Shown here in pieces: positions 11,377 to 37,988 of a stretch of 37,988 nucleotides of DNA. The DNA lies in NCBI GenBank assembly GCA_018673255.1, contig JABHDC010000231.1, positions 1 to 37,988 on the forward strand, given 5' to 3'. Source of the DNA: Gemmatimonadota bacterium (GTDB lineage Bacteria > Latescibacterota > UBA2968 > UBA8231). The notes below the pieces were generated by a model that worked only from the letters and a program-made list of their open reading frames with translations, did not search any database and had not been told where the DNA came from. Position 1 is the first letter of the stretch. Each line of letters opens with the position of its first letter. The position numbers and the translations under genes were made by a program.

Positions 11377-11409
11377 TCGGCGACAAGCCGACCTAGGAGA
11401 CTGAAATAG

Positions 11410-11790: not shown

Positions 11791-11863
11791 GGGCAGGTGC
11801 CCTGTTGTAGGGGCTGCATCGGAGGATTGGTTGTGTCAATACTCCGGGCATACATGGGGAACT

Positions 11864-11930: not shown

Positions 11931-11961
11931 CCTTACAGACTTTAGCAGGACATTAGAAGAG

Positions 11962-12354: not shown

Positions 12355-12400
12355 TCGCCATGTATAGGCGACGATACCAGAAAATCGAGACGACCAGAAC

Positions 12401-13027: not shown

Positions 13028-13098
13028 GACAACATCTTTTCTCGGGCCATAAGTTGGCTCGTCCATGGTGATCTGAACATAGGTCTCCACATCAGCGT

Positions 13099-13153
13099 CT
13101 TCGACGCCGAAGCTTTTCGACGCCGAATGCCGGCGGCGGTGATCGTCGCCGGC
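13099..13153 (+). promoter_or_regulatory. Tandem hairpin doublet plus GC-rich stem in rpsD-rpoA spacer
   Basis: The 12-mer TTCGACGCCGAA occurs twice (13100-13111 and 13116-13127); each copy folds as TTCG/CGAA around ACGC, and the first extends to CTTCG/CGAAG. Directly after it lies a strong GCCGGCG/CGCCGGC stem (13129-13135 and 13147-13153, 11-nt loop). There is no T-run. The element sits 55 bp before rpoA and repeats the doublet-plus-stem layout of the rpsM-rpsK spacer, though with different sequence. Attenuation, RNA processing or protein binding are all possible. Confidence 0.5.
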
Positions 13154-13208
13154 CTACGGAACCCACAACCATTCACTCTCCTCAGCTCATTGGGGGATAG
13201 AGATCTAT

Positions 13209-19500: not shown

Positions 19501-19741
19501 GAAGATCCTACTGCCTTCGGCTCCATAAGCGAGGCGAACGGGGCCCCTGTCGACACCCGGCAAGCAAATCGGATGAACTCACGAATGCGAGCAGTCGCTG
19601 CCATTGCAGTGCCAGATTGGCAGAGCTGATCCTTGGCAGGAGTGCCCACTCGAGAGGCTACGCGGATGGTACGGCAATTGCAATCCTTCGCGATCCGACC
19701 CGACGATGGCAGTCGGACCTGCCAATCCAGGAGAGCGACAA

Positions 19742-22111: not shown

Positions 22112-22122
22112 AAGAGGATGCA

Positions 22123-23505: not shown

Positions 23506-23529
23506 GCGCCCCACGCACTGGCTGCGATC

Positions 23530-25041
23530 TCAACCTCGACTGGCGTAGTACTCGCGAATCATTCGGTCGAGGGTGTCAGCCGGCGCGCGCGCGATGGCAT
23601 CGTCAATCTCGAGTTCATCGATCTCAAGCAGCTTGAGGCCGTGGCCATAATCGGCGAAGAGTTCTGAGCACAGCTCATCAGGCTGGCGTTGTTGCTGCGC
23701 AGCCGTTTCCACCAGCCAGGAACTTGCTCCGTCGGTGAAGTGCAGATTCACACCGTGGTCGGCCTGAAAACGACGACGGTAGCTCTCGATCGACTGCTCC
23801 TGTACGAAACTCTCGAGCATGCCCTCGGGGTCGGCGACGATCTGCTCGGTCACGCGGAAATGCTCAACGTCGAGCGATGGCAGACGGCACTCATAGCTGA
23901 GCAGGACCTTCTCCACCGCGGAGACCAGGCCGCGGGCACCGGTTCGTTCCTCCTGCGCCCGATCTGCAATACCTTGCAGGGCGCCGTCGGTGAACTCGAG
24001 TGCGATGTCGTACGCCTGGAAATCCCTGATCTTGGAGAGTACGACACTGCTGTTCGGGCTGCGCAGAATCTGTAACAGCTCCTCTCGGCCCAGGGGATCC
24101 AGGACCGCCATGACAGGCAGTCGTCCGATGAACTCAGACTCGAATCCGTATTCCATGAGATCCTCCGCCCTCACATGCCGCAGCAGATCCTCATCTTCCG
24201 TCGCCAACTCGTCTTCGTCGGTTGGCCGGAATCCCATCGTGCCACTGTGAAGACGATGGCGGACCAGTTCGTCGAGTCCGGAGAATGCGCCACTGACGAC
24301 AAACAGGATGTCTCGTGTGTTGACCTTCTTGTGCTCCACCTTACCTGTGCGCTGCATCTGCATGACCGACTCCATTTGCGACGACAGGTCATGGGGTGAG
24401 CGCAGGTCGACTTCGGTCTCCTCCATCAACTTCAGGAGATTGCGCTGAACACCTGTACGCGAAACGTCGGGCCCGGAGGAACGGCCGCTGGCGGCAATCT
24501 TGTCGATCTCGTCGACGTAGATGATCCCGTGTTCGGCCAGCTCGATATGCCCGTCCGCCTCGCTGACCAGCTCTCGAACCAGGTCCTCTACGTCTCCGCC
24601 AACATATCCGGTTTCCGAGAATTTGGTCGCATCGGCTTTGACGAAGGGGACGCCCAGACGCCGGGCGATGAGTTTGATGAGGAAGGTCTTGCCGACGCCG
24701 GTTGGACCGATCATGAGTACATTGTTCTTGATCCGGCCGACGATATCCTCGTCCGTATCTTGTGGCAGGCGGAGTCGGTTGAAGTGAGTACAGATCTTCG
24801 TCGACAGCACCGCTTTTGTCCGTTGCTGGCCGACAACGTATTTGTCGAGATGCTCGATCAGTTCGCCAGGCTTGAGATGAAAGTCCATCTGCGGCACATC
24901 GGTCTCAGCCGGACCATCGCTGTGGGCACCGGAGGTTTCGCTGCCTGCATTCTCAGGTGGCTCTGATTCAGTTTCCTGGCCGGTCAGGATCCGACGCAGT
25001 TGTTCCGGGTCCAGACCCGGCTTCTCCATTCGAAAGGACAT
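23530..25041 (-). CDS. ClpX-like AAA+ unfoldase lacking the zinc-binding domain
   Basis: ClpX unfolds proteins for ClpP. The 503-residue product has the ClpX/HslU-type AAA+ core: LDKYVVGQ (65-72), Walker A GPTGVGKT (112-119), pore loop GYVG (145-148), Walker B IIYVDEIDKIA (173-183), SGAFSGLDELV, EFIGRLPV (303-310) and sensor 2 TGARGL (367-372). Differences from ClpX are clear: no N-terminal four-cysteine zinc domain (instead a variable acidic 60-residue N-terminus), the ClpP-docking IGF loop reads MGF (269-271), and about 100 extra residues follow the small domain (about 405-503). The start at 25041 is the first likely ATG; 25029 is an alternative. It converges on the sigma-54 gene, 24 bp apart. 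It may act alone or with a different protease. Confidence 0.88.
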   Translation of the reverse strand: MSFRMEKPGLDPEQLRRILTGQETESEPPENAGSETSGAHSDGPAETDVPQMDFHLKPGELIEHLDKYVVGQQRTKAVLSTKICTHFNRLRLPQDTDEDIVGRIKNNVLMIGPTGVGKTFLIKLIARRLGVPFVKADATKFSETGYVGGDVEDLVRELVSEADGHIELAEHGIIYVDEIDKIAASGRSSGPDVSRTGVQRNLLKLMEETEVDLRSPHDLSSQMESVMQMQRTGKVEHKKVNTRDILFVVSGAFSGLDELVRHRLHSGTMGFRPTDEDELATEDEDLLRHVRAEDLMEYGFESEFIGRLPVMAVLDPLGREELLQILRSPNSSVVLSKIRDFQAYDIALEFTDGALQGIADRAQEERTGARGLVSAVEKVLLSYECRLPSLDVEHFRVTEQIVADPEGMLESFVQEQSIESYRRRFQADHGVNLHFTDGASSWLVETAAQQQRQPDELCSELFADYGHGLKLLEIDELEIDDAIARAPADTLDRMIREYYASRG

Positions 25042-25047
25042 GGTTCG

Positions 25048-25075
25048 TTGACTCGCGATCAGGGGGGGATTCAAT
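25048..25075 (+). promoter_or_regulatory. Weak candidate promoter for the 25111 gene
   Basis: TTGACT (25048-25053), 16 bp, then TTCAAT (25070-25075) match 5/6 and 4/6 of consensus. They lie in the 69-bp spacer between the divergent ClpX-like and exported-protein genes. A start near 25082 would fit the GTG at 25111. Support is sequence match only. Confidence 0.3.
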
Positions 25076-25110
25076 CGGCACCGTTGGCGCCACTGGGGAT
25101 CAAAGCAGAC

Positions 25111-27372
25111 GTGCGGCCGTCGGGTCTGGTTCCGGCCGGGTCGTGTTCGCACGGGCTCCTGCGCGAATGTAACCGTGCTCCCCGAACCCAACAAGGCAGA
25201 GCTGGATGGCATCGATGGCTTCTGCTCGGATGCATGATCCTGTGGGCGGTCCCGGTATTCGCCGCGCGACTGTCTCCACAGGCTGACCGCGACTTCGAGC
25301 GGGGCTTACGCGCCTACGAGGAAGAGGATCTGAAAGAGGCGCGAAAGCGTTTCGAGTCGATCGTCGAAGAGCCTGAAAACCAGCGTACAAGCGCGGCGTT
25401 GTTGATGCTGGCGCGCACGTTATTGCGCGGTGAGAAGTTCCGCCCGGGCCTGGATGCTGCCAAGCAGCTGGAACGCGACTTCCCCCGCAGTCGGTATGCC
25501 GCCGATGTGCAACTGCTGATCGGTGACAGCTATCTCGGACTGCAGCGCAATTACGAGGCAGCCGTCTACTACGCTCGTCTGCTCGACGACGCGACAGCTC
25601 CAATCGATCTGCGTGCCAGTGCCGCAGAGCGGATGACGATCCTCTTCTCCAATCACCTGATTTCCTTGGACGCTCAACGGGATCGAATTGCTCCCCGGGT
25701 GACCACCGAGGGCCTGCTGCAAGAGGCTCTCCTTTTTGGCGAGGGGCGCTGGTATGCCCGACTTGGTTGGGAGCCGCAGAGTCGGGATCGCCTGACGCGG
25801 TATCTGCGCCAGCATTCGGAAGGCGTGTTTGCCCCTTTGGCACGTAAGCGCCTGGGCAGCCTCGGAGGGGCCCTGATGCCCGCGGTTGTTCAGCGTGACA
25901 CGACAACTGTCCAGGAGGGAGAGGAGTGGCAGACGGGACCCTCTCGACCCGGTGTGCCCCGAATCGGGGTTCTGCTGCCGCTGACCGGACAGAGCGAAGA
26001 AGATGCTGCCATCGCCTCAGTGGGGCGCGAGATCCTGGATGGGATACGCTTTGCCAATGAAGAGGCGGGCGAGCCATTCGATCTCTTCATCGTTGATACG
26101 GGTGCTAAGTTCGTCGATTTCGAGGGTGAAGTGTTGCCCGTGCGTCAGAGTGAGGGCAGCCGATTGATTCGTGTCGTGAGTGGTGCTCGACGTCTGATCG
26201 AAGAAGCCAGCGTCGAAGCGATCATCGGTCCCATCTACAGCACATCCTGCGTCGTGGCTGCTGCTGTGGCCGAAGCGGCAGGTGTTCCCTTGCTGGCGCC
26301 CCTCGCCCAGCAAAGCGGCCTGGACTCTCTGGGAAGCCACATCTTCCAGCTGAATACGATTGCCGAAGTGCAGGGCCAGGCTCTGGCCGAATACGCGACG
26401 CTCGTCCTCGGACTCGAGACCCTGGCGATCCTCTCGCCTCTGAGTGACTATGGAGCAGCTTTTGAGCGCAGTTTCACAACTGCGGCGACTCTGAATGGTG
26501 GGCGGATCGTGCTCAGCGATCAGTATTTCCCGCAGGAGACGAAGGATTTCCATCGGCAATTCGAGTCGCTTCGCCGCGTCGGATTTGATCTGTTGCCCGC
26601 CGTCGCGCGTCGAGATTCCCTGGCGACGCTCGATTCGCTGGCCGTGGCTCTTCTGGATACGACTCTGGAAGGGGAGTGGACCTTCATCGAGGTCGTCGAA
26701 GGTATCGTGGATGAGGAACCACCTGACTCCAGCGAGATCTTTCTCGGTACCGTCGATGGCTTTGCCGTCATCGTGGAGCACTTCGACGATGCGAAGACGA
26801 TTGCGCCACAACTGCATTTCCATCGCCTCGAGACCCAGATGCTGGGGAATGACATCTGGTACGATCCTGAAGCGATCCACGCCATGGGCGCTACGGAGCG
26901 TGGCCATCTATCAGGGTGTATCTTCGTGACCCGTCGGCAGGGGGGGGTGGCGGAGCAGGACTTCCTCAATCGATACCGTGGGCAACGTCAACGCGACCCG
27001 GGTTATGCGGCAGACGGCTACGACGCGGCGAGCCTGCTGCTGGACGGCTGGCACGCCGGCAACGGCAATCGACGTCAGTTGCGAGAGTGGTTGTCACAGG
27101 TTCGTGCGTATGACGGTGCCTCCGGGCGCATCTCGTTTTCTGGTGAACGGCGCGTGAACAGCGCCCTCGCGTTGCTGCGAATCGACTCGGACGGATTGGC
27201 CCAGGCGCTGGATGAGAGCGAACTTCCCGAAGTTATCCGTGTTGCAGAGACGTCCGATCTGCCTTCCGCTGACCTGCTGCCGGAGGGAGAGGCGGCGTGG
27301 GAGTCGATGCCGATCGACGAGGACGTCATGCCTGGTGGAGATGAGTTTCGGCCTGCTGACAGGGACGAATGA
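25111..27372 (+). CDS. Exported TPR plus periplasmic-binding-fold protein (LpoA-like layout)
   Basis: The product (about 753 residues from GTG 25111) has a hydrophobic signal segment (about 35-51, WLLLGCMILWAVPVFAA), a helical-repeat region resembling TPRs (about 55-240: RGLRAYEEEDLKEARKRFES, ALLMLARTLLRGEKF, YAADVQLLIGDSYLGLQ), and a type I periplasmic-binding fold starting PRIGVLLPLTGQ and continuing through AIIGPIYSTSC and VPLLAPLAQQSGL. TPR plus this fold is the layout of LpoA-type penicillin-binding-protein activators; amino-acid ABC binding proteins share the fold. The tail is acidic. No lipobox is seen, unlike LpoA. The start is uncertain: no good ribosome-binding site, and TTG 25084 is an alternative. 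It may act in cell-wall synthesis or ligand sensing. Confidence 0.8.
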   Translation: MRPSGLVPAGSCSHGLLRECNRAPRTQQGRAGWHRWLLLGCMILWAVPVFAARLSPQADRDFERGLRAYEEEDLKEARKRFESIVEEPENQRTSAALLMLARTLLRGEKFRPGLDAAKQLERDFPRSRYAADVQLLIGDSYLGLQRNYEAAVYYARLLDDATAPIDLRASAAERMTILFSNHLISLDAQRDRIAPRVTTEGLLQEALLFGEGRWYARLGWEPQSRDRLTRYLRQHSEGVFAPLARKRLGSLGGALMPAVVQRDTTTVQEGEEWQTGPSRPGVPRIGVLLPLTGQSEEDAAIASVGREILDGIRFANEEAGEPFDLFIVDTGAKFVDFEGEVLPVRQSEGSRLIRVVSGARRLIEEASVEAIIGPIYSTSCVVAAAVAEAAGVPLLAPLAQQSGLDSLGSHIFQLNTIAEVQGQALAEYATLVLGLETLAILSPLSDYGAAFERSFTTAATLNGGRIVLSDQYFPQETKDFHRQFESLRRVGFDLLPAVARRDSLATLDSLAVALLDTTLEGEWTFIEVVEGIVDEEPPDSSEIFLGTVDGFAVIVEHFDDAKTIAPQLHFHRLETQMLGNDIWYDPEAIHAMGATERGHLSGCIFVTRRQGGVAEQDFLNRYRGQRQRDPGYAADGYDAASLLLDGWHAGNGNRRQLREWLSQVRAYDGASGRISFSGERRVNSALALLRIDSDGLAQALDESELPEVIRVAETSDLPSADLLPEGEAAWESMPIDEDVMPGGDEFRPADRDE

Positions 27373-27443
27373 CGGGGACACTTTCTGCCCGCGCTCGGAT
27401 TTGCTGCACCGAAAGCTGACGGCTACCTTTTACTGTTTCACCG

Positions 27444-27460
27444 CCGCCCGCACCGGGCGG
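27444..27460 (+). other. GC hairpin upstream of the FmdB-type gene
   Basis: CCGCCCG/CGGGCGG (27444-27450 and 27454-27460) with loop CAC is a perfect 7-bp stem in the 117-bp spacer after the exported protein. No T-run follows, so termination is not supported; it may be a weak or factor-assisted stop or a leader structure for the next gene, 29 bp away. Confidence 0.4.
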
Positions 27461-27489
27461 TCAGGCAGCACGCGAAAATAGAGCAAATC

Positions 27490-27795
27490 ATGCCGAATTA
27501 CGATTACGAGTGCCCGAAGTGTGGCCACCAGTTTGAGACCTACCAACCCATCACTGATGATCCCCTTACGAAGTGTCCTGAGAAGGGGTGCCGCGGAAAG
27601 ATTCGCCGGCTGATCGGTAGTGGGGGTGGTCTGCTGTTCAAGGGATCCGGTTTCTACATCACCGATTACCGGTCTGACAGCTACAAGAAGGCTGCCAAAG
27701 CCGATTCCACGAGTTCATCCTCGTCGTCATCGGGTGAGAGCAAGTCGTCATCGAGTGATAGTAAGTCGTCGTCCACTTCGTCGACGTCCGACTGA
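27490..27795 (+). CDS. FmdB-family zinc-ribbon protein with serine-rich tail
   Basis: FmdB-type proteins are small zinc ribbons of uncertain regulatory role. The 101-residue product starts MPNYDYECPKCGHQFETYQP with C8 and C11, then TKCPEKGCRGKIRRLIGSGG with C29 and C34, giving four cysteine ligands. It continues with LLFKGSGFYITDYRS, typical of the family. The last 30 residues are almost all serine with some Lys, Asp and Glu (SSSSSSSGESKSSSSDSKSS), a common low-complexity tail in this family. ATG 27490 has GAGCAAATC just upstream, a weak site. Confidence 0.93.
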   Translation: MPNYDYECPKCGHQFETYQPITDDPLTKCPEKGCRGKIRRLIGSGGGLLFKGSGFYITDYRSDSYKKAAKADSTSSSSSSSGESKSSSSDSKSSSTSSTSD

Positions 27796-27908
27796 CCTTG
27801 CCCATTCCGGGAACTGACTTGCCCGTTCTGGGAACCAGGCGTCGACTCGTGCGTCGACGTTCATCGAGAAGAGAACCAATCCAAACCTCTCACAACCGAA
27901 CATTGCAG

Positions 27909-28475
27909 ATGTCCTTTCGACCGATGACCCCCGCTTCGGAGACCGCCAGCCGACGCAGTTCGTTGACCAGCCGATGCAGTTCGTTGATTCCGGTTCTGTC
28001 TGTGTTTCTGCTGGCGCTGTCCGCCTGTTCCAGTCCTACACCTCAGCAGCAACTGGCCACTGCCGAAGCGGCCGCCCAGGAGGCGGCCCACGATGGTGGC
28101 AAAGTGGTCCAGGCAGTGGCGCTGCTCGAAGCTGTCGTCGCCGGCCACGCTGAGACGCCCGAAGCGCCCAGAGCTCTCAAGGCCCTGGCCATGCTCCGGC
28201 AGCAGCACGGCGAGATGGAGGGGGCGATCTCGACATATGACCGTCTCCTGGCATCCTATCCAGCCAGCGACGAGGCCGTAGAGGCCCAGTTCATGACGGC
28301 CTTCATCTACGAAGAGCATCTGGCAGACTTCGCTGCCGCCCGGCAAGCGTATCAGAAGGTCATCGACAACTACCCAGGTACTGAACTGGCGGCCAATGCG
28401 CAGATCCTGCTGCCGAACGTTGGTCGTGCTCCCGAAGAATACGTGAATTTTCAGGACGACCCACCCACCCACTGA
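27909..28475 (+). CDS. TPR-containing outer-membrane-type lipoprotein
   Basis: The 188-residue product has a basic N-terminal region, a hydrophobic segment and a lipobox LSAC with the lipidated cysteine at C40 (PVLSVFLLALSAC), then TPR-like repeats: AAHDGGKVVQAVALLEAVVA, APRALKALAMLRQQHGEMEG, AEAQFMTAFIYEE and ARQAYQKVIDNYPG, resembling the Tol-Pal YbgF or BamD tandem-repeat style. The N-terminal region contains a 21-bp in-frame tandem duplication (27946-27987), giving SRRSSLT then SRCSSLI. ATG 27909 is preferred over the earlier in-frame start at 27798. The partner is unknown; it lies 119 bp before moxR, so it may be a separate unit. Confidence 0.85.
   Translation: MSFRPMTPASETASRRSSLTSRCSSLIPVLSVFLLALSACSSPTPQQQLATAEAAAQEAAHDGGKVVQAVALLEAVVAGHAETPEAPRALKALAMLRQQHGEMEGAISTYDRLLASYPASDEAVEAQFMTAFIYEEHLADFAAARQAYQKVIDNYPGTELAANAQILLPNVGRAPEEYVNFQDDPPTH
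27946..27987 (+). repeat. 21-bp tandem duplication inside lipoprotein gene
   Basis: Two adjacent 21-bp units, beginning CCAGCCGACGCAG and CCAGCCGATGCAG, differ at one base. The period keeps frame and adds seven residues to the signal-peptide n-region. It looks like a recent slippage duplication. Confidence 0.8.
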
Positions 28476-28515
28476 TTTCTTGTACCGGACCACGATGATC
28501 GATTGCCTGAGGAAC

Positions 28516-28542
28516 CGTGGATGCAGGTTTGTCGCATCCATG
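28516..28542 (+). other. Hairpin in the leader region of moxR
   Basis: CGTGGATGC (28516-28524) pairs with GCATCCATG (28534-28542), nine base pairs including one G-T wobble, with a 9-nt loop. It lies in the 119-bp spacer 52 bp before the moxR start, with no T-run. It may be a leader structure or the weak end of the lipoprotein transcript. Confidence 0.4.
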
Positions 28543-28594
28543 AAGTCTTCGCGCGATCTGTGACATATCCGTATCTGTGAGGGATGAATAGAGA

Positions 28595-29590
28595 ATGCAG
28601 ACCAGTCCTGATATCACCGCACTGACCGCCAGGATACAGGAGGAAAGCCAGCTCGTGGAACGAGCACTGGCCGAGATGGATCGTGTGATCGTCGGTCAGC
28701 GACCGATGGTGGAACGCATCATGATCGGCTTCCTGTGCGGTGGCCACATTCTGCTCGAAGGAGTACCGGGGCTGGCCAAGACGCTGACCGTCAGCAGTCT
28801 CTCGCGCATCATCAAGGCAAGCTTCCATCGGCTTCAGTTCACGCCCGACCTCTTGCCGGCAGACCTGACAGGTACGCTGATCTACGAACAGAACTCGGGA
28901 GAATTCGTGGCCCGGAAGGGACCGATCTTCGCGAATCTGATCCTGGCTGATGAGATCAACCGCGCGCCGGCCAAGGTGCAAAGTGCGCTGCTGGAGGCGA
29001 TGCAGGAACGGCAGGTGACGATCGGTGATGAGAGCTTCGCCCTCGACGATCCCTTCCTGGTCATGGCGACGCAGAATCCAATCGAGCAGGAGGGGACGTA
29101 TCCGCTGCCTGAAGCACAGGTCGATCGCTTCATGCTCAAGGTCAAGGTTGACTATCCGACCAGAGACGAAGAGCGCCAGATCCTGGAGCGGATGATGGAT
29201 GGTGGCGACGAGGAACTGGCTTCGATCATGGATGTTGACGATATACGTCGCCTGCGGGATGCGGTCCGCCTTGTGTATACGGACGACAAGATCAAGGACT
29301 ATATCGTGGATCTGGTGCAGGCGACCCGCGACCCGGCTGCGGCCGGGCTGGAAGAACTGGCCCCGCTGATCGAATACGGTGCATCACCGCGGGCGACCCT
29401 CTTTCTGGCAAGGGCAGCAAGGGCTCACGCCTTCCTGCGTAAGCGCGGCTACGTCACGCCGGAGGATGTGAAGGCGATCGGTCTGGATGTCCTGCGCCAT
29501 CGGGTTGCTATCAGCTATGAAGCTGAGGCAGAGCAGATGGACGCCGATCACATCGTCGAGCGGCTTTTCGATCACATCGAAGTTCCGTAA
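28595..29590 (+). CDS. MoxR-family AAA+ ATPase
   Basis: MoxR ATPases act as chaperones, often with a vWA partner encoded next door, to insert cofactors or assemble complexes. The 331-residue product has Walker A GVPGLAKT (56-63), the MoxR signature FTPDLLPADLTGT (82-94), Walker B LILADEINRAP (115-125), sensor 1 ATQNPIEQEGTYPLPEAQ (158-175) with VDRFM, and a C-terminal lid (YGASPRATLFLARAARAHAF). ATG 28595 is used. The DUF58 partner follows after 13 bp, the most common MoxR gene pair. Confidence 0.95.
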   Translation: MQTSPDITALTARIQEESQLVERALAEMDRVIVGQRPMVERIMIGFLCGGHILLEGVPGLAKTLTVSSLSRIIKASFHRLQFTPDLLPADLTGTLIYEQNSGEFVARKGPIFANLILADEINRAPAKVQSALLEAMQERQVTIGDESFALDDPFLVMATQNPIEQEGTYPLPEAQVDRFMLKVKVDYPTRDEERQILERMMDGGDEELASIMDVDDIRRLRDAVRLVYTDDKIKDYIVDLVQATRDPAAAGLEELAPLIEYGASPRATLFLARAARAHAFLRKRGYVTPEDVKAIGLDVLRHRVAISYEAEAEQMDADHIVERLFDHIEVP

Positions 29591-29603
29591 GAGCACGGTT
29601 CCG

Positions 29604-30485
29604 ATGATCCCACGTGAGATTCTCGACAAGGTTCAGCAGATCGAGATTCAGACGGGTCGGTTGGTGAACAACCTGTTTGCCGGCGAATACCACTCGGTCT
29701 TCAAGGGACACGGGATGGAATTTGCGGAGGTCCGCGAATACCAGCCTGGTGATGACGTGAGGGCCATCGACTGGAATGTGACGGCCCGTGCCGGTGGGAA
29801 GCCCTTCGTGAAGGTCTATGACGAAGAGCGCGAACTGACCGTTGTCCTCGTCGTCGATGCGAGCGCCTCAGGCGCGTTTGGATCGGATGCGCGTCTCAAG
29901 GGGGAGATCGCCGTTGAGATCTCTGCCGTATTGGCATTTTCGGCTATCAAGAACAACGATCGCGTCGGTCTCCTGATCTTCACCGATGAGGTCGAGGTCT
30001 TCGTGCCACCAAAGAAGGGGAAGCGTCACGTCCTTCGTGTGATACGTGAACTGCTGTATCACGAGCCTCGGAATCGGCGAACGTCGATCGCCACCGCTGC
30101 CGACTATCTGGACCGGGTCGTACGTCGGCACAGTGTCGTCTTCCTGTTGTCTGATTTCCTCGACGAGGATTACGAGGGTGCGCTACGACGGTTGCGACGT
30201 CGCCATGACCTGGTGGCGGTGACGATGCAGGATCCTCGAGAGGCGCAGATGCCCGACGTGGGACTCCTCGAACTGGAAGATGCCGAGACGGGCACTTTCA
30301 CCGTCGTCGACAGCCATCACGAACCCACTCGCAAGGCGTACGCGCAACGCTGGCGCCGTCAACAACGCGAGCGACAGAAGCTGTTTCGTCGCCATGATAT
30401 CGATGAGATCGAGATCGATACGACACAACCATACGTGCGGCCTCTCGTCCGTTTCTTCGAGGGTCGGATGACCCGAAGTGGCTGA
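29604..30485 (+). CDS. DUF58 / von Willebrand factor A-like protein
   Basis: DUF58 proteins are paired with MoxR, contain a vWA-like fold and are thought to be its partners. The 293-residue product has the signature REYQPGDDVRAIDWNVTAR (44-62) and a MIDAS-like DASAS (85-89). Conserved ANNDRVG-like AIKNNDRVGLLIFTD follows. It lacks membrane segments, so it is probably cytoplasmic or membrane-associated through partners. ATG 29604 is chosen over an in-frame start at 29487 inside moxR. A 43-bp gap precedes the ABC ATPase. Confidence 0.93.
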   Translation: MIPREILDKVQQIEIQTGRLVNNLFAGEYHSVFKGHGMEFAEVREYQPGDDVRAIDWNVTARAGGKPFVKVYDEERELTVVLVVDASASGAFGSDARLKGEIAVEISAVLAFSAIKNNDRVGLLIFTDEVEVFVPPKKGKRHVLRVIRELLYHEPRNRRTSIATAADYLDRVVRRHSVVFLLSDFLDEDYEGALRRLRRRHDLVAVTMQDPREAQMPDVGLLELEDAETGTFTVVDSHHEPTRKAYAQRWRRQQRERQKLFRRHDIDEIEIDTTQPYVRPLVRFFEGRMTRSG

Positions 30486-30528
30486 CAATCCAACACGCTC
30501 TGAACTACACGCTGGGAGGTAGTGGACT

Positions 30529-31470
30529 GTGATCGAAGTAGATCAACTCTCCAAACACTACGGTGACGTGACGGCCGTCGATGCCGTCTCCTTTCGCGCC
30601 GATCGCGGCCAGATTCTCGGATTTCTCGGCCCCAATGGCGCGGGGAAGACGACGACCATGCGCATTCTGACATGTTATCTCCCGCCATCGTCCGGCACGG
30701 CCAGTGTTGATGGTCATGACGTGAACGAGGCCTCGATGGAGGTCCGTCGTTGTATTGGCTATCTGCCCGAGTCGCCACCGGTCTATATGGACATGACCGT
30801 CGATGCCTATCTGGGATTCGTGGCGCGTATCAAAGGCGTGGCTTCAGCCCAGATGCGTGGTCGGATCGATGAGACCATGGAGAAGACGGGGATCGCTCAC
30901 GTTCGCAGCAGTGTCATCGGGCACCTGTCCAAGGGCTACCGGCAGCGTGTCGGGCTTGCCCAGGCACTGGTACACAATCCGAGCGTCCTCATCCTGGACG
31001 AACCGACAGTTGGTCTGGATCCGAAGCAGATTATCGAGATCCGTGAAGTGATCAAGTCATTACGGGGTGAGCACACGATCATCCTCAGTACGCATATCCT
31101 GCCCGAGGTCAGCATGACATGCGACAAGATCGTCATCATCAATCAGGGACGGATCGTGGGAGAAGGAAGTCCTGAGAGCCTCACAGCCCAGTTGCAGGAG
31201 GGAGACGTGTTGCGCGCCTTGGTAAGGGGGCCGTCGGACGCGGTTGGGGCAGCCCTGCGATCCATCGACGGCGTGCTCGAAGTGCAGCACGAGGATGGTG
31301 GTGGTGATCAGGACAGCTGGCGTGTCACATCCGTCCCCGGTCAGGATGTTCGCGAAGCGGTCGGTCGCGTCATCATCGATGGCGGGTTCAGTTTGCGTGA
31401 GTTGCGGTCTCTCGACATGACGCTGGAAGACATCTTCCTGCGTCTGACCACCGAAGACATCAGGGCTTAG
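30529..31470 (+). CDS. ABC transporter ATPase, GldA-like
   Basis: This nucleotide-binding subunit of an ABC exporter has 313 residues with Walker A GPNGAGKT (34-41), Q-loop region around GYLPE, signature LSKGYRQR (133-140), Walker B LILDEPTVGLDP (154-165), and H-loop STHI. A C-terminal domain of about 80 residues follows the core. The closest layout is the GldA/NosF/CcmA-like group that pairs with a GldF permease and GldG, encoded next. GTG 30529 has GGGAGG 9 bp upstream. The permease starts 11 bp after its stop. Substrate cannot be told from sequence. Confidence 0.93.
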   Translation: MIEVDQLSKHYGDVTAVDAVSFRADRGQILGFLGPNGAGKTTTMRILTCYLPPSSGTASVDGHDVNEASMEVRRCIGYLPESPPVYMDMTVDAYLGFVARIKGVASAQMRGRIDETMEKTGIAHVRSSVIGHLSKGYRQRVGLAQALVHNPSVLILDEPTVGLDPKQIIEIREVIKSLRGEHTIILSTHILPEVSMTCDKIVIINQGRIVGEGSPESLTAQLQEGDVLRALVRGPSDAVGAALRSIDGVLEVQHEDGGGDQDSWRVTSVPGQDVREAVGRVIIDGGFSLRELRSLDMTLEDIFLRLTTEDIRA

Positions 31471-31481
31471 GGGAGGCGAGA

Positions 31482-32264
31482 ATGCGCAATCTGCTGGCTA
31501 TCTACAACAAGGAACTTCGGTCCTACTTCGTCTCACCGGTGGCGTACGTCATCGCTGGTGTGTTCCTGTTCCTCTCCGGTTACCTGTTCCGCAACATCCT
31601 CATGCAGTTCAACTTCTGGTGTCAGCAGGTCAGCCAGAGTTCCCAGTACATGCAGGGGGGAATGCCGAACCTGAATCTCAACGAGATGGTGGTGACCCAA
31701 TTTTTCGGTGTCATGGACTTCATCTGGCTTCTCGTCGTTCCCATGCTGACCATGCGCCTGCTGGCAGAAGAGAAGAAGAATGGGACGATGGAATTACTCA
31801 TGACATCTCCCATTTCCACCGTCGAGATCCTGCTGGGCAAGTTCTTCGCCTGTCTCACCCTCTACATGACGATCGTGGCGCTGACGCTCGTGTATTGCCT
31901 CATCCTCGAGATGTATGGTGATCCCGACTGGGGGCCCATCTGGTCGGCGTATCTGGGGTATCTGCTGCTCGGTGGAACATTCATCAGTGTTGGTATGCTC
32001 GCTTCATCATTGACGGAGAACCAGATCGTCGCCGTCCTGTTGTCTTTTGGCGCTCTGCTGCTGCTGTGGCTCATCGACTGGTCGGCGAGTTTTGCTGGTC
32101 CCACGACGGCGAAGGTCCTCCAATACATGTCGATCATCGCACACCTGCAGGACTTTCAGCGCGGTGTCATCGACACGAGTGATGTCATCTTCTACCTCTC
32201 CTTCATCTTTTTCGCCCTGTTCGTGACGACGCGGGTCGTTGAGTCCCGGCGCTGGCGGCGCTGA
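31482..32264 (+). CDS. ABC transporter permease, GldF-like
   Basis: The 260-residue inner-membrane protein has about six hydrophobic segments, with YNKELRSYFVSPVAYVIAGV at the N-terminus, the ABC-2 coupling region RLLAEEKKNGTMELLMTSPI (about residues 88-107) and SLTENQIVAVLLSFGALLLL. This is the ABC-2/GldF family. It is encoded directly after the ATPase and before the double GldG protein, matching gldA-gldF-gldG order. Its TGA overlaps the start of the strong AGGAGGAAGAGGAGAGG site of the next gene. Confidence 0.92.
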   Translation: MRNLLAIYNKELRSYFVSPVAYVIAGVFLFLSGYLFRNILMQFNFWCQQVSQSSQYMQGGMPNLNLNEMVVTQFFGVMDFIWLLVVPMLTMRLLAEEKKNGTMELLMTSPISTVEILLGKFFACLTLYMTIVALTLVYCLILEMYGDPDWGPIWSAYLGYLLLGGTFISVGMLASSLTENQIVAVLLSFGALLLLWLIDWSASFAGPTTAKVLQYMSIIAHLQDFQRGVIDTSDVIFYLSFIFFALFVTTRVVESRRWRR

Positions 32265-32283
32265 GGAGGAAGAGGAGAGGGCG

Positions 32284-35200
32284 ATGAACTTGCACGTCAA
32301 GAAATACAGTGCTGCCATCAGCGCCGTCGGAGCCGTCCTGCTGCTGGCCGGCTTCCTGTCGCTTGTACTGCGTTCCGGAGACAGCTCACTGCCATTCTAC
32401 GTGGCAGGACTGGGCATCGCATGTCTGGTCCCGGCTGTACTCATCGATGCTGACCTGTTCAGACGTTATGGACGCTGGCTGAATGCATTCTGGGGCACCG
32501 CCATGGTACTGGCCATCGTGGGCATGCTCAATTTCCTCGGGCAGCGCTACAGCGAGCGTATCGATCTCACGGAGGGGCAACTTCACAGCCTTGCAGACCT
32601 CACGGTGCAGACGCTGGAGGGGCTGGACCGCGATGCTCAGGCTCTTGCATTCATGGAGGGGGGCGCTCATCCCGAATTGCGGTCGCTCCTCGAGCAATAC
32701 GTCGTGCATGGTGGCGGCCGTTTTGGATTCGAGTTCATCGATCCAGATCGGGATCCGACCCGTGCCGATGCCTATGGCATCACGGCGTACAACACGCTCG
32801 TCATTGAAGTCGATGGGCGTCGCCAGAATGTGACAGAGTTGACGGAGAAGGAGATCACCAATCGTCTTCTCAAGGTCGTCCGTGACCGGCAGGAGGTCGT
32901 GTATGTAGCCGTCGGCCACGGTGAGGTGCCCCTGACTGGACAGGAGGGGGGCGCGCTGGGCCGCATGCGGCAGCGTCTGCAGGAAATCGACTATGTCGTA
33001 AGGGACTCCCTGTTCCTGGCTCGGGAAGGCAGAGTGCCCGACGACTGCCGCGTGCTCATTATCGCTGGTCCCCAATCTCCATTGTTGCCCATGGAAGCGG
33101 AGGCGGTCAGCAACTTCCTCGATGACGGGGGGGCTGTTCTGCTGCTGACCGATCCGGGTGCAATCACGGGGATGGAATCCCTCGTGGAGCGCTGGGGGGT
33201 GATTCTGGGTGATGATTTCGTCATCGACACCAGCGGCATCGGCAGCCTCTTTGGCCTCGACTTCACCATACCGGTAGCGACCCAGTACGATGACGGGCAC
33301 CCGATCACGCGCAAACACCGATCCGGTACCGTCACGAGTTACGAATTTGTGCGCTCCGTGCAACTCGATTCCCAGGCGGTGGCCACGACGCAGATGGAGG
33401 CGGCAGCTCTGGTCTTCACCTCAGATCAGAGCTGGGGAGAGGTCGATCTGGAGGCTCTGCGCCCTGGCCGCGGTGAGGTTTCGGTCAGTTTTGACGAAGC
33501 GGATCTTCCAGGACCGGTGTCGCTGGCCGTAGCTGTCCGCGACAGTGCCCGGGCCGGGGGGCGACTGGTCGTGTTTGGCGATTCCGACTTTGCTACGGAT
33601 GGCTATTTCGATCTGCAAGGGAATGGAGATCTTCTGCTCAACGCCATCAGCTGGCTGGCTGAAGACGAGCAGCTGATTGCCATCCGGCCGCGAGATCCGG
33701 GATTCCGTCCCATCGCCCTGAACGAATCTCAGTCTGAGTGGGTGTTCTGGCTCACCGTCGTGCTGCTGCCAGGTGTCGTGGCAGCTCTTGGGTTCTTTGT
33801 CGTTTCTCGGGGCGGGCGTTGGAGCCTGCGAGATCTGGTCACAGCTGCAGTCGGTGTTGCGCTCTCCCTGGGTGTGGTGGCACTGCTCAACGTAATCGGT
33901 GACCGGTACCACAAACGATTCGACGTTACCCAGGACAACCTGTTCACACTTTCGTCGCAGAGTCAGGATGTACTGACCCAACTCGACCAGAGCGGCAAAC
34001 GGGCAACTCTGCGTGTGTTCATGAACGAACAGGAGGGCGGCAGATACCAGGAATTACTGCGCGAATTTGAGTACGGATCCGATGCCTTCGACTTCGAGGT
34101 CATCGACCCGCAGAAAGAAGCACTGCAGGTGCAGCAGTACGGTATCCGCGACCGCGGTTCATCCATTCTCGAAGTCAGCGGTGGCGGCCAACTCGCCAGC
34201 GAGCGTTTCAGTGAGCAAACCGAACAGGCTCTCAGCAATGCCCTGCTCAGGGCGATGGGGGCAGGGGAGCGACGTCTCAGATACACCACGGGGCACGCTG
34301 AGACAGATCTGACGCAGGTGGACGGTGAGGGCTTCAGTATCCTGAGTGGACGTCTCAAGGAGCTGAATGTGGAGATCTCGCCGATCGCCTCGATCACGGA
34401 ACTCGGCGAAGGCGACACCGCCGATGGGCAGGTCCTCGCACTCCTGGGACCTCAATCGGCTCTGAGTGCCGCAGAACAGGTGGCCCTGCGTCGGTATCTG
34501 GAGCGTGGTGGTGATCTACTCCTGCTTGTGGATCCCGGAGTTGTCCTCGGCATCGAGGACCTTCTTGCTGAAGGATATGGCATCGATCTGGGTGATGACT
34601 TCATTGTAGATCTGTCTGGGTTGGGGCAACTGCTGGGAACCGATGTCTCGGTACCGGTCGTCATCTCATACGCCGATCATCCGGTGACAGAGCAGATGGG
34701 GCGCAGTGGCATGTCCTACTTCCCCCTGGCGCGAACCGTCACCTCGTCGCCTGGCGCGATGGGCGTGACGGAACTGGCTTTCACCGATCAGCGGGCCTGG
34801 GGAGAATCCGATCTCTCGCCTCTGTTCAGCTCTGATGGGGGAGGCGCCGTCGAATACAATGCCGATCGTGATCGCCCCGGCCCCTTGTCCCTGGCCGTCG
34901 CCGTTTCTGCGCAGGGCGACTCGGCTGCTGGTGAAAACCTGACACGGATCGTCGTGATCGGTGACAGCGATTTCGCCCGGAACCAGCATTTCTCTCAGCA
35001 AGGCAATGGCGAGTTACTCGTGCATGCGGGCCGCTGGCTCATCGAGGGTGAGGATGCGTTGAGTATTGCCGAGCGCATGCCTCGATTCAATCCTCTCATG
35101 CTTGAAGATGAGGCCAGTGACTGGATCCTGTGGCTCTCGGTTTTCCTTTTGCCCTTCGCCGTCGCGTTGTCTGGATTCGTCATCATGCTCCGACGTGGTT

Positions 35201-35595
35201 ACGAAACCTATGCTTCCGGATTTGTTGCCTGGCTGGTTTATACCTTCGGGGCGGCTGGTCTTTTCTACTTCTGGGTTGGCGTTGTGGGTGCGACCGAGGG
35301 GGGGCTGATTCGAACGCCCGTGGGGCTTGGCCTTTCACTTCTCAGTGGCGCCATCGCCTACGGTCTGTATCGGCGCTCGACACTGAGTTGGCCGGTGGCA
35401 CTATCGACAGCGATCGGCAATGTGGGCCTGGCCTTCGTACTCGTGCCCAATGACGTGCTGCAACTGGTCGCGGCGGGGATCTTCGTCGCCAATGCCTGCA
35501 TCCTGATCTGGATCCGCCATGATTTCCTGCCGAGCGACCACGACGGCATGCCAGGTGGGCAGTCGACATCAGCACCCGTGAACCCGGAGAAGTGA
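32284..35595 (+). CDS. Tandem-duplicated GldG-like transporter auxiliary protein
   Basis: GldG-type proteins are auxiliary subunits of Gld ABC transporters. A single GldG is usually about 500-560 residues; this product is 1103 and holds two homologous halves. Copy 1 (about 66-510) has GQRYSERIDLTEGQL, VFGDSDFATDGYFDLQGNGD and a TM at about 485-508. Copy 2 (about 520-970) has GDRYHKRFDVTQDNL, VIGDSDFARNQHFSQQGNGE and a TM at about 946-968. Offsets between matched motifs are steady at 453-461 residues. Three TMs precede copy 1, one lies between copies, and about four follow copy 2, so roughly ten in total. ATG 32284 has a very strong ribosome-binding site. The rest of each half is predicted periplasmic. 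Confidence 0.92.
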   Translation: MNLHVKKYSAAISAVGAVLLLAGFLSLVLRSGDSSLPFYVAGLGIACLVPAVLIDADLFRRYGRWLNAFWGTAMVLAIVGMLNFLGQRYSERIDLTEGQLHSLADLTVQTLEGLDRDAQALAFMEGGAHPELRSLLEQYVVHGGGRFGFEFIDPDRDPTRADAYGITAYNTLVIEVDGRRQNVTELTEKEITNRLLKVVRDRQEVVYVAVGHGEVPLTGQEGGALGRMRQRLQEIDYVVRDSLFLAREGRVPDDCRVLIIAGPQSPLLPMEAEAVSNFLDDGGAVLLLTDPGAITGMESLVERWGVILGDDFVIDTSGIGSLFGLDFTIPVATQYDDGHPITRKHRSGTVTSYEFVRSVQLDSQAVATTQMEAAALVFTSDQSWGEVDLEALRPGRGEVSVSFDEADLPGPVSLAVAVRDSARAGGRLVVFGDSDFATDGYFDLQGNGDLLLNAISWLAEDEQLIAIRPRDPGFRPIALNESQSEWVFWLTVVLLPGVVAALGFFVVSRGGRWSLRDLVTAAVGVALSLGVVALLNVIGDRYHKRFDVTQDNLFTLSSQSQDVLTQLDQSGKRATLRVFMNEQEGGRYQELLREFEYGSDAFDFEVIDPQKEALQVQQYGIRDRGSSILEVSGGGQLASERFSEQTEQALSNALLRAMGAGERRLRYTTGHAETDLTQVDGEGFSILSGRLKELNVEISPIASITELGEGDTADGQVLALLGPQSALSAAEQVALRRYLERGGDLLLLVDPGVVLGIEDLLAEGYGIDLGDDFIVDLSGLGQLLGTDVSVPVVISYADHPVTEQMGRSGMSYFPLARTVTSSPGAMGVTELAFTDQRAWGESDLSPLFSSDGGGAVEYNADRDRPGPLSLAVAVSAQGDSAAGENLTRIVVIGDSDFARNQHFSQQGNGELLVHAGRWLIEGEDALSIAERMPRFNPLMLEDEASDWILWLSVFLLPFAVALSGFVIMLRRGYETYASGFVAWLVYTFGAAGLFYFWVGVVGATEGGLIRTPVGLGLSLLSGAIAYGLYRRSTLSWPVALSTAIGNVGLAFVLVPNDVLQLVAAGIFVANACILIWIRHDFLPSDHDGMPGGQSTSAPVNPEK

Positions 35596-35599
35596 GGTC

Positions 35600-37069
35600 A
35601 TGCGTCTGAAGACGAACTTTGTCATCAGTGTGGTCTTCGCGGCTCTACTCGCCTTCGTCTATTTCTACGAGATCAAGGGTGGCGATGAGCGTGAATTGGA
35701 TGCCGAGAGAGCCCGTCAGGTCATCGATTTCAGTGATCACGAGGCACAGCGCCTGACGATCGCCGGGCCCGAAACGACCCTTGTGATCGAACGTCGCGAA
35801 ACGGGTTGGGAGATCCGCCAACCGATTGAGACCCATGCTGATTCAGAATCGATCGATCGGTATCTGAGAAACCTGAAGGAGACCGAGATTGAAGGCGAGC
35901 CCGTGCAGGACTCTGCCGCCGTCGCCGGCGACTCGGGTCTGCTCGCCCCTTACGGGCTGGATAGTCCGCGGTTGAGTGTGCACGTGGCGTTGGCTCCCAG
36001 CGCAGGAACCGAACTCGACACACTTCAATTCGGAATCGACACACCGACCCAGCGCTTCACCTATGTGCAGCTATCGGGTAAGAATCCGGAAGTTCGCACG
36101 GTGCGGGCCTGGCGGTATGACAATCTCGAGAAAGGGTTGTTCGATCTTCGCGACCGGCAGGTGTTGCATCTGGATCGTGATCAGGTCACCGAGTTGCGGC
36201 TGCAGCGCGTGGGGATGGCTGAGGAGGAGCAGATTGTCGCCATGCGTCGGGGAGGCGGATGGGAGCTGACATCGCCTCTGAAGGTGGCGGCAGAGGATGC
36301 TGCAGTCGACGAAATCCTCAACCGGCTCGGCAATGCAAAGATCGAGTCCTTCATCCATGAGCAGCCATCTGAAGCCGATCTGGAGCAAGCAGGTCTCGCC
36401 CCGGATCAGCACTTCATCCATCTCACGTTGCTGGAAGGAGAGGCGCATTCGGAGAGACATCTGAGAGTTGGCTCACGTCAGCAGCGTGGGGACCACTACG
36501 CCATGGATGTCAGCCGAACCCCCGTCTTCGTCGTCGATTCGACCCTCGTGTCGCAGCTGTCGAAGTCCCTTCAGGAACTGCGCGACCACCGTCCTTTCCG
36601 GGTGACGCCGACGGTTGACGGCATACAGATGACGCGACAGGGTGAGAGTCTCTATCGAGCTGTTCGGGATAGCAGTGGCGGATGGCGATTTGCTTCGCAC
36701 CCGGATCGTGAAGCCAAGGCATGGCGACTCAACGACTTGCTGACTGCTCTGGACGCAGTGCAGGTCGAAGAGTTCGTTGCCGATGCCGAGGATCTGAACA
36801 GCCTCGACGCTGGGGCCTACGGATTCGACAAGCCAGACCTGCAGCTTGGTCTGGAGCGCGATGATGGCGAACGCTTCCTGGTCGAGCTTGCCGAAGTGGA
36901 TGGCATGGTGTACGCCCGACGGTCGGATGTGCCGAGCATCTATGCGGTAGCTCAACAGAGCCTGACGGACCTCTCGCCTGATCTCGAGGAAGTTGCACTG
37001 GCCGTCGCCACCACGACCGCCGACAGCACGGCGGCGGGAGATGGTCAGTCGGGGAGTCGCGGGCAGTGA
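35600..37069 (+). CDS. DUF4340 protein, probable membrane-anchored partner of the GldG-like subunit
   Basis: DUF4340 genes commonly follow gldG-like genes, with unknown biochemical role. The 489-residue product has an N-terminal anchor (residues 7-24, FVISVVFAALLAFVYFYE) followed by a periplasmic region with repeated DUF4340-style units, for example ARQVIDFSDHEAQRLTIAG, GWEIRQPI and later GGWELTSPLKVAAEDAAVDE and GGWRFASHPDREAKAWRLND. Three such units suggest repeated domains. ATG 35600 is 4 bp after the GldG stop. Its TGA overlaps the next GTG, so translation is probably coupled. Confidence 0.88.
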   Translation: MRLKTNFVISVVFAALLAFVYFYEIKGGDERELDAERARQVIDFSDHEAQRLTIAGPETTLVIERRETGWEIRQPIETHADSESIDRYLRNLKETEIEGEPVQDSAAVAGDSGLLAPYGLDSPRLSVHVALAPSAGTELDTLQFGIDTPTQRFTYVQLSGKNPEVRTVRAWRYDNLEKGLFDLRDRQVLHLDRDQVTELRLQRVGMAEEEQIVAMRRGGGWELTSPLKVAAEDAAVDEILNRLGNAKIESFIHEQPSEADLEQAGLAPDQHFIHLTLLEGEAHSERHLRVGSRQQRGDHYAMDVSRTPVFVVDSTLVSQLSKSLQELRDHRPFRVTPTVDGIQMTRQGESLYRAVRDSSGGWRFASHPDREAKAWRLNDLLTALDAVQVEEFVADAEDLNSLDAGAYGFDKPDLQLGLERDDGERFLVELAEVDGMVYARRSDVPSIYAVAQQSLTDLSPDLEEVALAVATTTADSTAAGDGQSGSRGQ

Positions 37070-37988
37070 GTCGTCGCGCAGTCATCCGCCGGCTGTGCAT
37101 GGTGGCTGTCTGTGCCGTGCCCGGCTGGGTGTCCGCCGCTGCCATCGGGCAGCTCGGGATCGCCGCCACGGTCGATACGCACCAGGTCCACATTGCAGAT
37201 CCGGTTCGGCTCCACCTGCGCGTCGAGGGACTTGAGGTGTCGCAGCGAGCCCACTTTCCCCAGGACCTGAGTGCACAGTTACCTGAGCATGTGGTGGCTC
37301 GTCGGCTCGGCCCCATCGCAGCAGCTGACAGCGTGGCCAGCTACGATCTTCGCCTCTTCGAAGTCGGAGATGTGACGATTGAAGCACTGGATGTGAGCAT
37401 CATCGATGGGGGTGACACGCTCACGTTGCAGACCGCGCCCATCGATCTGCGTGTTGTCCCCCTGCGTGAAGAAGGGGAGACGGATCTGCGGCAGATCAAG
37501 CCGCCCTGGGCCATTGGTGGGGGCATCCCTATCTGGCTCGTCGTCCTCTTCGTCGTCTTGCTGATTGCGGCACTGGCCTGGGTCGCCTCGCGGTATCTGC
37601 TGAACCGTGCGCCTCCCGCTGTGAGGTTGCAACCATCGGCACCGACAGATTTCTCTCGCGAATTCTCTCGTATCGAGTCGATGGGATTGCTCGAACGGGG
37701 TGCCCTTAAGCTTTACTACACACACCTGGCTGATGTGCTGCGGCGATTGCTCGAAGAGCAGCTGCAGATCGAGGCGAGCGAGCGAACGACACAGGAGATC
37801 GCCACGGATGTGGCGCGACATTCATTGGCCTCCGAGGCTATCCATCGACAGATCCTGGAATTTCTGTCCGCAGCTGACCTGGTGAAATTCGCGCGTGCCG
37901 AGCCCCCGATCCAAGAGGCTCGAGCCATGCCGGCCCGTGGCCGACAGATCGTGATGGACCTCGCAGCACAACAGGCCGCCCGGGTTGC
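37066..37988 (+). CDS. BatD/DUF4381-like membrane protein, truncated by window end
   Basis: The frame is open to the last base; 307 codons are visible. It starts at GTG 37066 in a 4-bp overlap with the DUF4340 stop. Features are a signal peptide (about 1-25, ending GWVSAAA), a periplasmic beta-rich domain, DLRQIKPP (140-147, like the IKPP motif of BatD proteins), a single TM (about 153-176), and a cytoplasmic helical region with YYTHLADVLRRLLEEQLQIE and TTQEIATDVARHS, typical of DUF4381/BatD C-termini. These are normally found in MoxR-DUF58-Bat operons, so the MoxR pair at 28595-30485 is its likely partner. The remaining C-terminus is outside the window. Confidence 0.85.
   Translation, partial: MSRRAVIRRLCMVAVCAVPGWVSAAAIGQLGIAATVDTHQVHIADPVRLHLRVEGLEVSQRAHFPQDLSAQLPEHVVARRLGPIAAADSVASYDLRLFEVGDVTIEALDVSIIDGGDTLTLQTAPIDLRVVPLREEGETDLRQIKPPWAIGGGIPIWLVVLFVVLLIAALAWVASRYLLNRAPPAVRLQPSAPTDFSREFSRIESMGLLERGALKLYYTHLADVLRRLLEEQLQIEASERTTQEIATDVARHSLASEAIHRQILEFLSAADLVKFARAEPPIQEARAMPARGRQIVMDLAAQQAARV

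Follow-up and report, generated by a model that had tools for sequence, protein, structure and literature searches.

A Gld-like ABC transporter cassette with DUF4340 located within a Bat-type MoxR-DUF58 operon

In a stretch of 37,988 nucleotides from a Gemmatimonadota bacterium (contig JABHDC010000231.1 of GenBank assembly GCA_018673255.1; "the window" hereafter means this whole stretch), seven genes, all on the plus strand, form a string in which a Gld-like ATP-binding cassette (ABC) transporter and a DUF4340 gene lie inside a Bat (Bacteroides aerotolerance) operon. The listing of open reading frames (ORFs) gives, in order, MoxR, DUF58, GldA-like, GldF-like, GldG-like, DUF4340 and BatD/DUF4381-like (Table 1), with successive gaps of 13, 43, 11, 19 and 4 bp and then a 4-bp overlap between DUF4340 and the BatD-like gene; an earlier note on this DNA, made from its letters, had reported these seven co-directional genes and their spacing, all of which is exact according to the ORF coordinates. 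The hallmark of Bat operons, a MoxR AAA+ ATPase followed by DUF58, is present in the window, and so are, by Pfam, the ABC_tran, ABC-2 permease and ABC_transp_aux families of the transporter. The operon is real and conserved; the Bat operon and the Gld-type transporter are both familiar, and it represents a novel form of each. We know of no agreed molecular function for either the Bat proteins or the GldAFG-DUF4340 transporter; that the two are joined in several phyla, and not always at the same joint, points to each as the likely partner of the other, which is directly testable.

Twenty fused GldG proteins (described below) were aligned, genomes were scanned with the alignment, and the best 80 of 522 confirmed places were kept as loci. 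Genes in the loci were labelled with profiles built from the window and from locus L002; as these profiles drew on the same loci, the window included, the window's own scores are not independent. The fullest order reads TPR, MoxR, DUF58, GldA, GldF, GldG, DUF4340, BatD/DUF4381-like, BatA, BatB, BatC, BatD and BatE, and the full string from MoxR to BatE was seen in L001, L002, L004, L008-L010, L012, L013, L015, L016 and L019, with the first vWA gene scoring best as BatB in some of them. The nearest relatives thus run on into BatA, BatB, BatC, BatD and BatE, which places the Gld block inside a full Bat operon and bears out the earlier placement of the transporter between DUF58 and the BatD/DUF4381-like gene of a Bat-type block. 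MoxR and DUF58 lie upstream in all 16 fused-GldG rows with at least 4.5 kb of upstream sequence (window included). The vWA genes (BatA/BatB) that had been predicted just past the end of the window, and which lie beyond the window itself, are found in relatives: BatA/BatB follow in 16 of the 19 fused-GldG rows with at least 2.5 kb after DUF4340, or in 15 of 17 distinct records, L096 repeating L003 and L091 overlapping L015. The three rows without them are L003, its duplicate L096, and L092. In L002, the genes downstream of the window's extent match, in Pfam, VWA, BatA, TPR, BatD (126.9 bits) and TPR plus a weak SH3, the last three being BatC/BatD/BatE-type genes, and the metal ion-dependent adhesion site (MIDAS) motifs are intact in BatA (DVSSS) and BatB (DLSRS). 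The TPR gene is the usual gene directly upstream of MoxR in relatives and is so labelled in many linked loci; in the window, it ends 119 bp before MoxR. The survey of gene order in relatives found the combination conserved, and two of the refuting conditions set in the earlier note, a combination absent from relatives and a lack of vWA genes downstream, fall away on the evidence of these relatives.

The two parts are closely joined. Between DUF58 and GldA, the distance has a median of 28 bp (60 bp or less in 24 of 29 loci), and between DUF4340 and the BatD/DUF4381-like gene a median of -1 bp (60 bp or less in 29 of 31 loci), the latter joint being kept in distant clades; these lengths are minima, as longest-ORF starts were used, and L015 and L091 share one record. 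The three large DUF58-GldA gaps (L036, L088 and L093) contain an extra ORF. The absence of an apparent module boundary is supported by these joints, mostly under 60 bp, and by the overlap or near-overlap of DUF4340 with the BatD-like gene. An assembly joint was rejected as the source of the gene order, which recurs in many contigs, some longer than 1 Mb. As for the extra genes, the DUF58-GldA gap of L036 holds, within the operon, a TPR/PpiC-rotamase gene (L036:7002-8231), and L065, from a metagenome-assembled genome labelled Caldithrix abyssi, carries a TPR gene after DUF58 and before the BatD-like gene (L065:4489-5697), with a SurA_N match just under the cut-off; both are, by their domains, periplasmic folding factors.

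The linkage of DUF58 with DUF4340 was then counted by phylum. Phylum names of the genomes counted follow the titles of the records that hold the corresponding loci. Among the matches listed for the 64 genomes of L002's phylum group, DUF4340 is present in 64 and DUF58 in 63; in 34 of these genomes they are neighbours on the same strand, the hit starts of linked pairs lying 3.9 to 6.7 kb apart; DUF4340 is downstream of DUF58 in every linked genome. A Calditrichota-type phylum shows the linkage in 16 of 40 genomes, 29 of them with a DUF4340 match (again among the matches listed), and a Marinimicrobia-type phylum in at least 22 of 61 (29 with a DUF4340 match), a lower bound because L100 (genome G110) has the cassette though it lacks a match in the genome count. 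The linkage also occurs in L036 (genome G002), the sole genome of its phylum group. The Acidobacteriota, used as a control, have no DUF58-DUF4340 same-strand neighbours in 60 genomes, 44 with DUF4340, among the matches listed; the omitted weak rows that were listed were compared by eye with the DUF4340 contigs and gave no further same-strand neighbour. In one Acidobacteriota genome (G185), DUF58 and DUF4340 are on opposite strands with 7.4 kb between them. The expectation by chance in the three linked phyla is roughly 0.7-1.3% per genome, with gene numbers and genome sizes entered by hand, and a chance neighbourhood was rejected on the basis of these counts; the Fisher values for the comparison are nominal, as kin genomes enter them as if independent. 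In these counts, some second DUF4340 fragments were omitted, the stronger DUF58 rows were used, and most second copies and weak vWA rows were left aside; some unlinked genomes have DUF58 and DUF4340 at contig ends, and G035 has no DUF4340 match in the count, yet shows weak Pfam matches. The view that MoxR-DUF58-Bat operons and gld-DUF4340 clusters usually occur separately, thus, agrees with the Acidobacteriota sample but not with the other three phyla, in which the two are often joined. A second DUF4340 gene lies elsewhere in two genomes of the clade (L097 and L098), beside large ORFs scoring with TPR profiles.

The place at which the cassette is joined varies from one group to another. In the window's phylum, it is flanked by DUF58 and the BatD-like gene; the Calditrichota-type loci L111-L115 have it one gene further on, with the BatD-like gene before it and BatA behind; and in the Marinimicrobia-type loci L100 and L106-L110 it comes after the BatD-like gene of a MoxR-DUF58-BatD-like string. 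Cassette-free versions of the Calditrichota-type operon also exist, L104 and L105 being empty at that joint and L103 having a small unlabelled ORF there; further cassette-free strings are L101 and L102 (Marinimicrobia-type) and L086 (window's phylum). Finally, in one lineage the string is split. The first half, TPR-MoxR-DUF58-GldA-GldF, is found in L081, L082, L083, L124 and L123, and the second, GldG-DUF4340-BatD/DUF4381-like-BatA-BatB, in L027, L120, L033, L121 and L122 of the respective same five genomes; BatC is labelled in 5 of the 5 second halves, and BatD and BatE in 3 of 5, L121 stopping at a contig end and L033 having no BatD/BatE label. Where one contig (of 6.5 or 5.7 Mb) carries both DUF58 and DUF4340 of this lineage, they are 0.52 and 1.27 Mb apart, respectively, and in six genomes near the split ones in the table (G037-G041 and G043) they lie on different contigs. 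No GldA or GldF is found upstream of GldG in L024 and L027, the latter having aldolase, sulfatase, MFS and acetate kinase genes there. This lineage offers a test made by nature of which parts remain joined: the string broke within the transporter and the halves keep their Bat neighbours, which is hard to reconcile with two self-contained modules that adjoin by habit. Two Marinimicrobia-type loci (L076:4464-11506 and L116:245-8670) carry a tandem pair of gld cassettes, of which the first has a short DUF4340, and the pair of L076 directly follows MoxR-DUF58-BatD-like.

Taken together, the different joints, the cassette-free strings and the split inside the transporter argue for a functional tie between the Bat and gld parts, which we consider probable. 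A more specific proposal is that of a composite envelope-machine operon, in which the GldA-GldF-GldG-DUF4340 cassette would be built into the Bat operon and MoxR and the vWA proteins, as a chaperone-like set, would act on the transporter; we put it forward tentatively, leaning slightly to the side of doubt. Indeed, several points weigh against it. Genomes of one phylum are kin, so that the counts above overstate the number of independent events. Marinimicrobia-type loci have none of BatA to BatE after the cassette within the flanks examined, only MoxR-DUF58-BatD-like being joined to it. Gld cassettes without any Bat gene in the flanks examined occur in Acidobacteria- and KSB1-labelled loci and in the Calditrichota-labelled L031; together with the gld-free strings (L086, L101-L105), they indicate that the modules are separable and that neither strictly needs the other. 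L094 reads gld-BatD-like-BatA-BatB in a genome (G009) that lacks any strong match to DUF58. The split lineage makes it clear that physical linkage is dispensable there, and L003 and L092 carry a fused-GldG cassette without the genes from BatD/DUF4381-like to BatD. The mechanical-work step and the direction of action between MoxR and the transporter are conjectural, and the case for one machine is drawn from gene content, order and recurrence. Regarding L003 and L092, the missing Bat genes may reflect a deletion or an assembly fault: in L003 (5616-7962), the next genes after DUF4340 are one for a TPR-SH3 (BatE-like) protein and one for a glycosyltransferase, the Bat genes being missing down to BatE, and in L092 (6804-11043) DUF4340 is followed by an ORF of like size, with no Bat gene labelled between.

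It is a serious possibility, if not the one we would back, that the operon holds two independent ATP-driven machines serving the same envelope process, with a shared periplasmic client or stress, that are co-transcribed without contact, the linkage reflecting shared regulation and dosage. Each module is also found alone, the split lineage keeps DUF58 and DUF4340 far apart, and a study of Verrucomicrobium spinosum whose main text is without MoxR, DUF58 or Gld rated a DUF4340 domain as essential (PMC12283558). However, the split falls inside the transporter and not between the modules, the tight joint of DUF4340 with the BatD/DUF4381-like gene is preserved in distant clades, and the retention of the cassette order at different joints suggests more than a shared promoter.

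The history of the merger can be read from a joint GldA and GldF tree of 77 loci. At least 3 changes between the linked and unlinked states are needed, counted on 55 scored rows (22 of the 77 were set aside as too near a contig end); so small a number, like the kinship of the genomes, weighs against taking the counts above as separate events. The linked Calditrichota- and Marinimicrobia-type rows group with unlinked KSB1- and Calditrichota-labelled rows, with moderate support (85), apart from the window's clade; this grouping and the different joints suggest at least two joinings, or one joining followed by rearrangement. One could, thus, suppose that the gld cassette entered a Bat operon once or twice in ancestors and was kept there by slow rearrangement, with no functional tie, a reading compatible with only 3 state changes on the tree and with the close kinship of many genomes within each phylum. 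We find it unlikely, given that linkage is seen in three phylum groups plus L036/G002 with different joints, that the gaps are still tight, and that, among the matches listed, none of the 44 Acidobacteriota genomes with DUF4340 has it.

The identity of the transporter calls for some caution. Among NCBIfam families, the three proteins come closest to GldA, GldF and GldG, with 324.1 bits against TIGR03522 (GldA; cut-off 402.6), 159.9 bits against TIGR03518 (GldF; cut-off 288.5) and 89.5 bits against TIGR03521 (GldG; cut-off 389.85); as all three are under the curated cut-offs, "Gld-like" is correct and "gliding transporter" is not established. Membership in gliding or type IX secretion on names alone was, thus, rejected. 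With the gliding transporter, the window shares the same three families and a gldG placed after gldF; it differs in its scores below the equivalog cut-offs, its DUF4340 partner and its tandem-fused GldG. An accessory transporter of gliding motility or type IX secretion with a Bat operon attached would agree with these best names, and gldD and gldG mutants of Flavobacterium psychrophilum are reported to be poor at secreting some proteins exported by the type IX secretion system (PMC5682007); we hold it to be highly improbable, since all three proteins are clearly below the cut-offs and the cassette with DUF4340 is also found in Acidobacteria- and other-labelled loci.

The window's GldG is 1103 aa (amino acids) long because two GldG units are fused: it consists of two units in tandem (GIFT/DUF4350-type domains with transmembrane segments), whose halves are 37% identical over 464 aa, and it is over the Pfam cut-off for DUF4350. 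Among the best 7993 candidates scored, 100 of the 111 GldG matches have this fused length (995-1117 aa), the window protein among them; the organisms named for these are Gemmatimonadetes/Gemmatimonadota or Latescibacteria/Latescibacterota, the window protein being listed under a Gemmatimonadetes metagenome-assembled genome. The 19 fused-GldG rows form a single clade with full support in the tree. Labels within it are mixed, the L002 genome being labelled Gemmatimonadetes and the same phylum group including the Latescibacterota-labelled L019 and L027; the window is, on this ground, probably of Latescibacterota type.

We may now come back to the composite envelope machine and to how it could work. 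GldA and GldF would constitute an ABC engine that hands its cycle on to the large periplasmic arms of GldG and DUF4340, and this engine would not carry solutes in the ordinary way but do mechanical work across the membrane. NosDFY-type ABC machines, in which an ABC-2 permease, an ATPase and a periplasmic partner together act on a client protein, serve here only as a model for such mechanical work. MoxR, via the vWA proteins DUF58, BatA and BatB, might assemble, remodel or reset the membrane complex, ABC engine included, in line with the earlier suggestion that the MoxR/vWA pair could assemble or energise the transporter complex. The BatD/DUF4381-like protein, with an Ig-like (immunoglobulin-like) domain outside and a conserved helical bundle inside, could link the two parts, and the likely job of the whole would be the upkeep or maturation of envelope proteins under stress. 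A bolder version, which we regard as rather doubtful, is a machine spanning the envelope that is powered by two different ATPases: a MoxR ring, acting by way of vWA proteins in the cytosol and the membrane, and an ABC-2 engine would be coupled by a BatD/DUF4381-type linker and drive the large periplasmic GldG/DUF4340 arms; the fused GldG arms would form a built-in pseudo-dimer in the window's clade, and the principle would extend to archaeal MoxR-vWA-GldG-like operons.

Such archaeal operons are already in print, and the "undescribed envelope system" of the earlier note has to be qualified for that reason. Makarova, Galperin and Koonin (2015) described operons in archaea that combine MoxR and vWA genes with one for a GldG-like DUF4350 protein, and predicted that they encode a secretion or membrane-remodelling complex (PMC5898192). 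Their prediction is the closest prior idea, so that the idea of a composite machine is partly published. The archaeal arCOG01314 system combines a GldG-like membrane-anchored protein with a MoxR ATPase, vWA and Ig-like proteins, and the window also combines GldG-like/DUF4350 with MoxR and vWA; in contrast, no ABC ATPase/permease or DUF4340 is named in the passages of that paper on the archaeal system, whose Ig proteins are those of S-layers, whereas only Bat-type Ig proteins were identified here (PMC5898192).

Compared with Bat operons, the relatives' string likewise has MoxR, DUF58, the vWA proteins BatA/BatB, the TPR proteins BatC/BatE, and BatD; unlike them, it includes an ABC transporter, GldG and DUF4340, plus an extra short BatD/DUF4381-like gene. 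MoxR-DUF58-DUF4381-vWA operons, which are not known to carry a gld cassette, are similar in that relatives have, at the joint, a gene resembling BatD-Ig plus DUF4381. The gene pa3071 is, we assume, that of a DUF58 protein. In Pseudomonas aeruginosa, PA4040 is named as a DUF4340 protein (PMC8088628), and from the locus numbers of PA4040 and pa3071 the two modules would look far apart in this species. For Parapedobacter indicus, the Bat operon is described as batA-E plus a hypothetical gene, moxR and pa3071, eight genes in all with no gld gene among them (PMC7500135). In Leptospira biflexa, the bat genes belong to an 11-gene cluster with moxR and htpG for which independent promoters were inferred, a warning for any one-transcript view, and the same paper states that the Bat proteins had no agreed molecular function as of 2012 (PMC3557215). 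As to F. psychrophilum, gldG is described as sitting between gldF and dnaN, not amid Bat genes, and MoxR appears in one row of a surface-proteome table, as absent in the gldD mutant (PMC5682007). In the open-licence literature of PubMed Central, we found no paper with MoxR, DUF58 and GldG, none with DUF4340 and GldG, and none with MoxR and DUF4381; MoxR and GldF were found together only in one paper, on F. psychrophilum.

Table 1. Features of the operon and of the gene preceding it (positions in the window).
Feature	Coordinates	Strand	Matches and remarks
TPR lipoprotein-like gene (YbgF/BamD-like TPRs)	27798..28475	+	Pfam TPR_6 46.3 bits
MoxR-family AAA+ ATPase, 331 aa	28595..29590	+	Pfam AAA_3 215.7 bits, AAA_lid_2 79
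DUF58 protein with vWA match, 293 aa	29604..30485	+	PF01882 270.3 bits, VWA_2 54.2
DUF58-GldA joint, 43 bp	30486..30528	+	GGGAGG ahead of GldA
GldA-like ABC ATPase, 313 aa	30529..31470	+	ABC_tran 104.9 bits
GldF-like ABC-2 permease, 260 aa	31482..32264	+	ABC2_membrane_2 55.7 bits
GldG-like protein, 1103 aa, tandem fusion	32284..35595	+	PF09822 (ABC_transp_aux) 139.8 bits, two stretches; DUF4350 54.7; IFT52_GIFT 51.7
DUF4340 protein, 489 aa	35600..37069	+	PF14238 181.1 bits, three stretches
BatD/DUF4381-like protein, open at window end	37066..37988	+	50% identity to L002 homologue; relatives' Pfam matches

The starts of DUF58 and of the GldG-like gene were each picked within a longer ORF. The window's MoxR has a solved relative (2r44, E 1.6e-106) and carries the motifs LILADEINRA and ATQNP and the P-loop GVPGLAKT, with the Ala before Lys that is usual for MoxR. 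DUF58 has an intact MIDAS-like motif (DASAS) at residue 85; the GldA-like protein has, on motif reading, intact Walker A, signature and Walker B, and hydropathy predicts six transmembrane helices for the GldF-like protein.

The last gene of the window matches no Pfam family at 1e-3, nor does its L002 homologue at 0.01; distant relatives (L036, L053, L057 and L065) have BatD and/or DUF4381 matches, DUF4381 being over the cut-off in L065 only, and, by way of these relatives, the BatD/DUF4381-like label appears fair. The model of the L002 homologue, with a predicted local distance difference test (pLDDT) of 85.9, suggests an Ig-like domain (about residues 32-137), one transmembrane helix and a C-terminal helical domain, the bundle having conserved Arg228, Asp273 and Lys276; its sidedness in the membrane is suggested by the signal-like N-terminus. 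The AlphaFold model of DUF4340 (pLDDT 93.7; predicted template modelling score, pTM, 0.84) has a long N-terminal transmembrane helix and three alpha/beta repeats; the protein is predicted to be periplasmic and has no clear relative among solved structures.

A promoter consensus scan of positions 27300-37988 gave one promoter-like site (27533, upstream) versus 3.1 in shuffles, which says little. Further upstream (25000-27795), the window encodes a Peripla_BP_6 protein, which also scores with a TPR profile and whose make-up we take to be LpoA-like, and an FmdB-type zinc ribbon protein (Zn_ribbon_8). Before these (19604-25212) come a Lon protease and a sigma-54 response regulator, with a Clp-like AAA protein on the minus strand, and the window starts in a ribosomal-protein region (1-14225) that encodes SecY, ribosomal protein L2, elongation factor Tu and the alpha chain of RNA polymerase.

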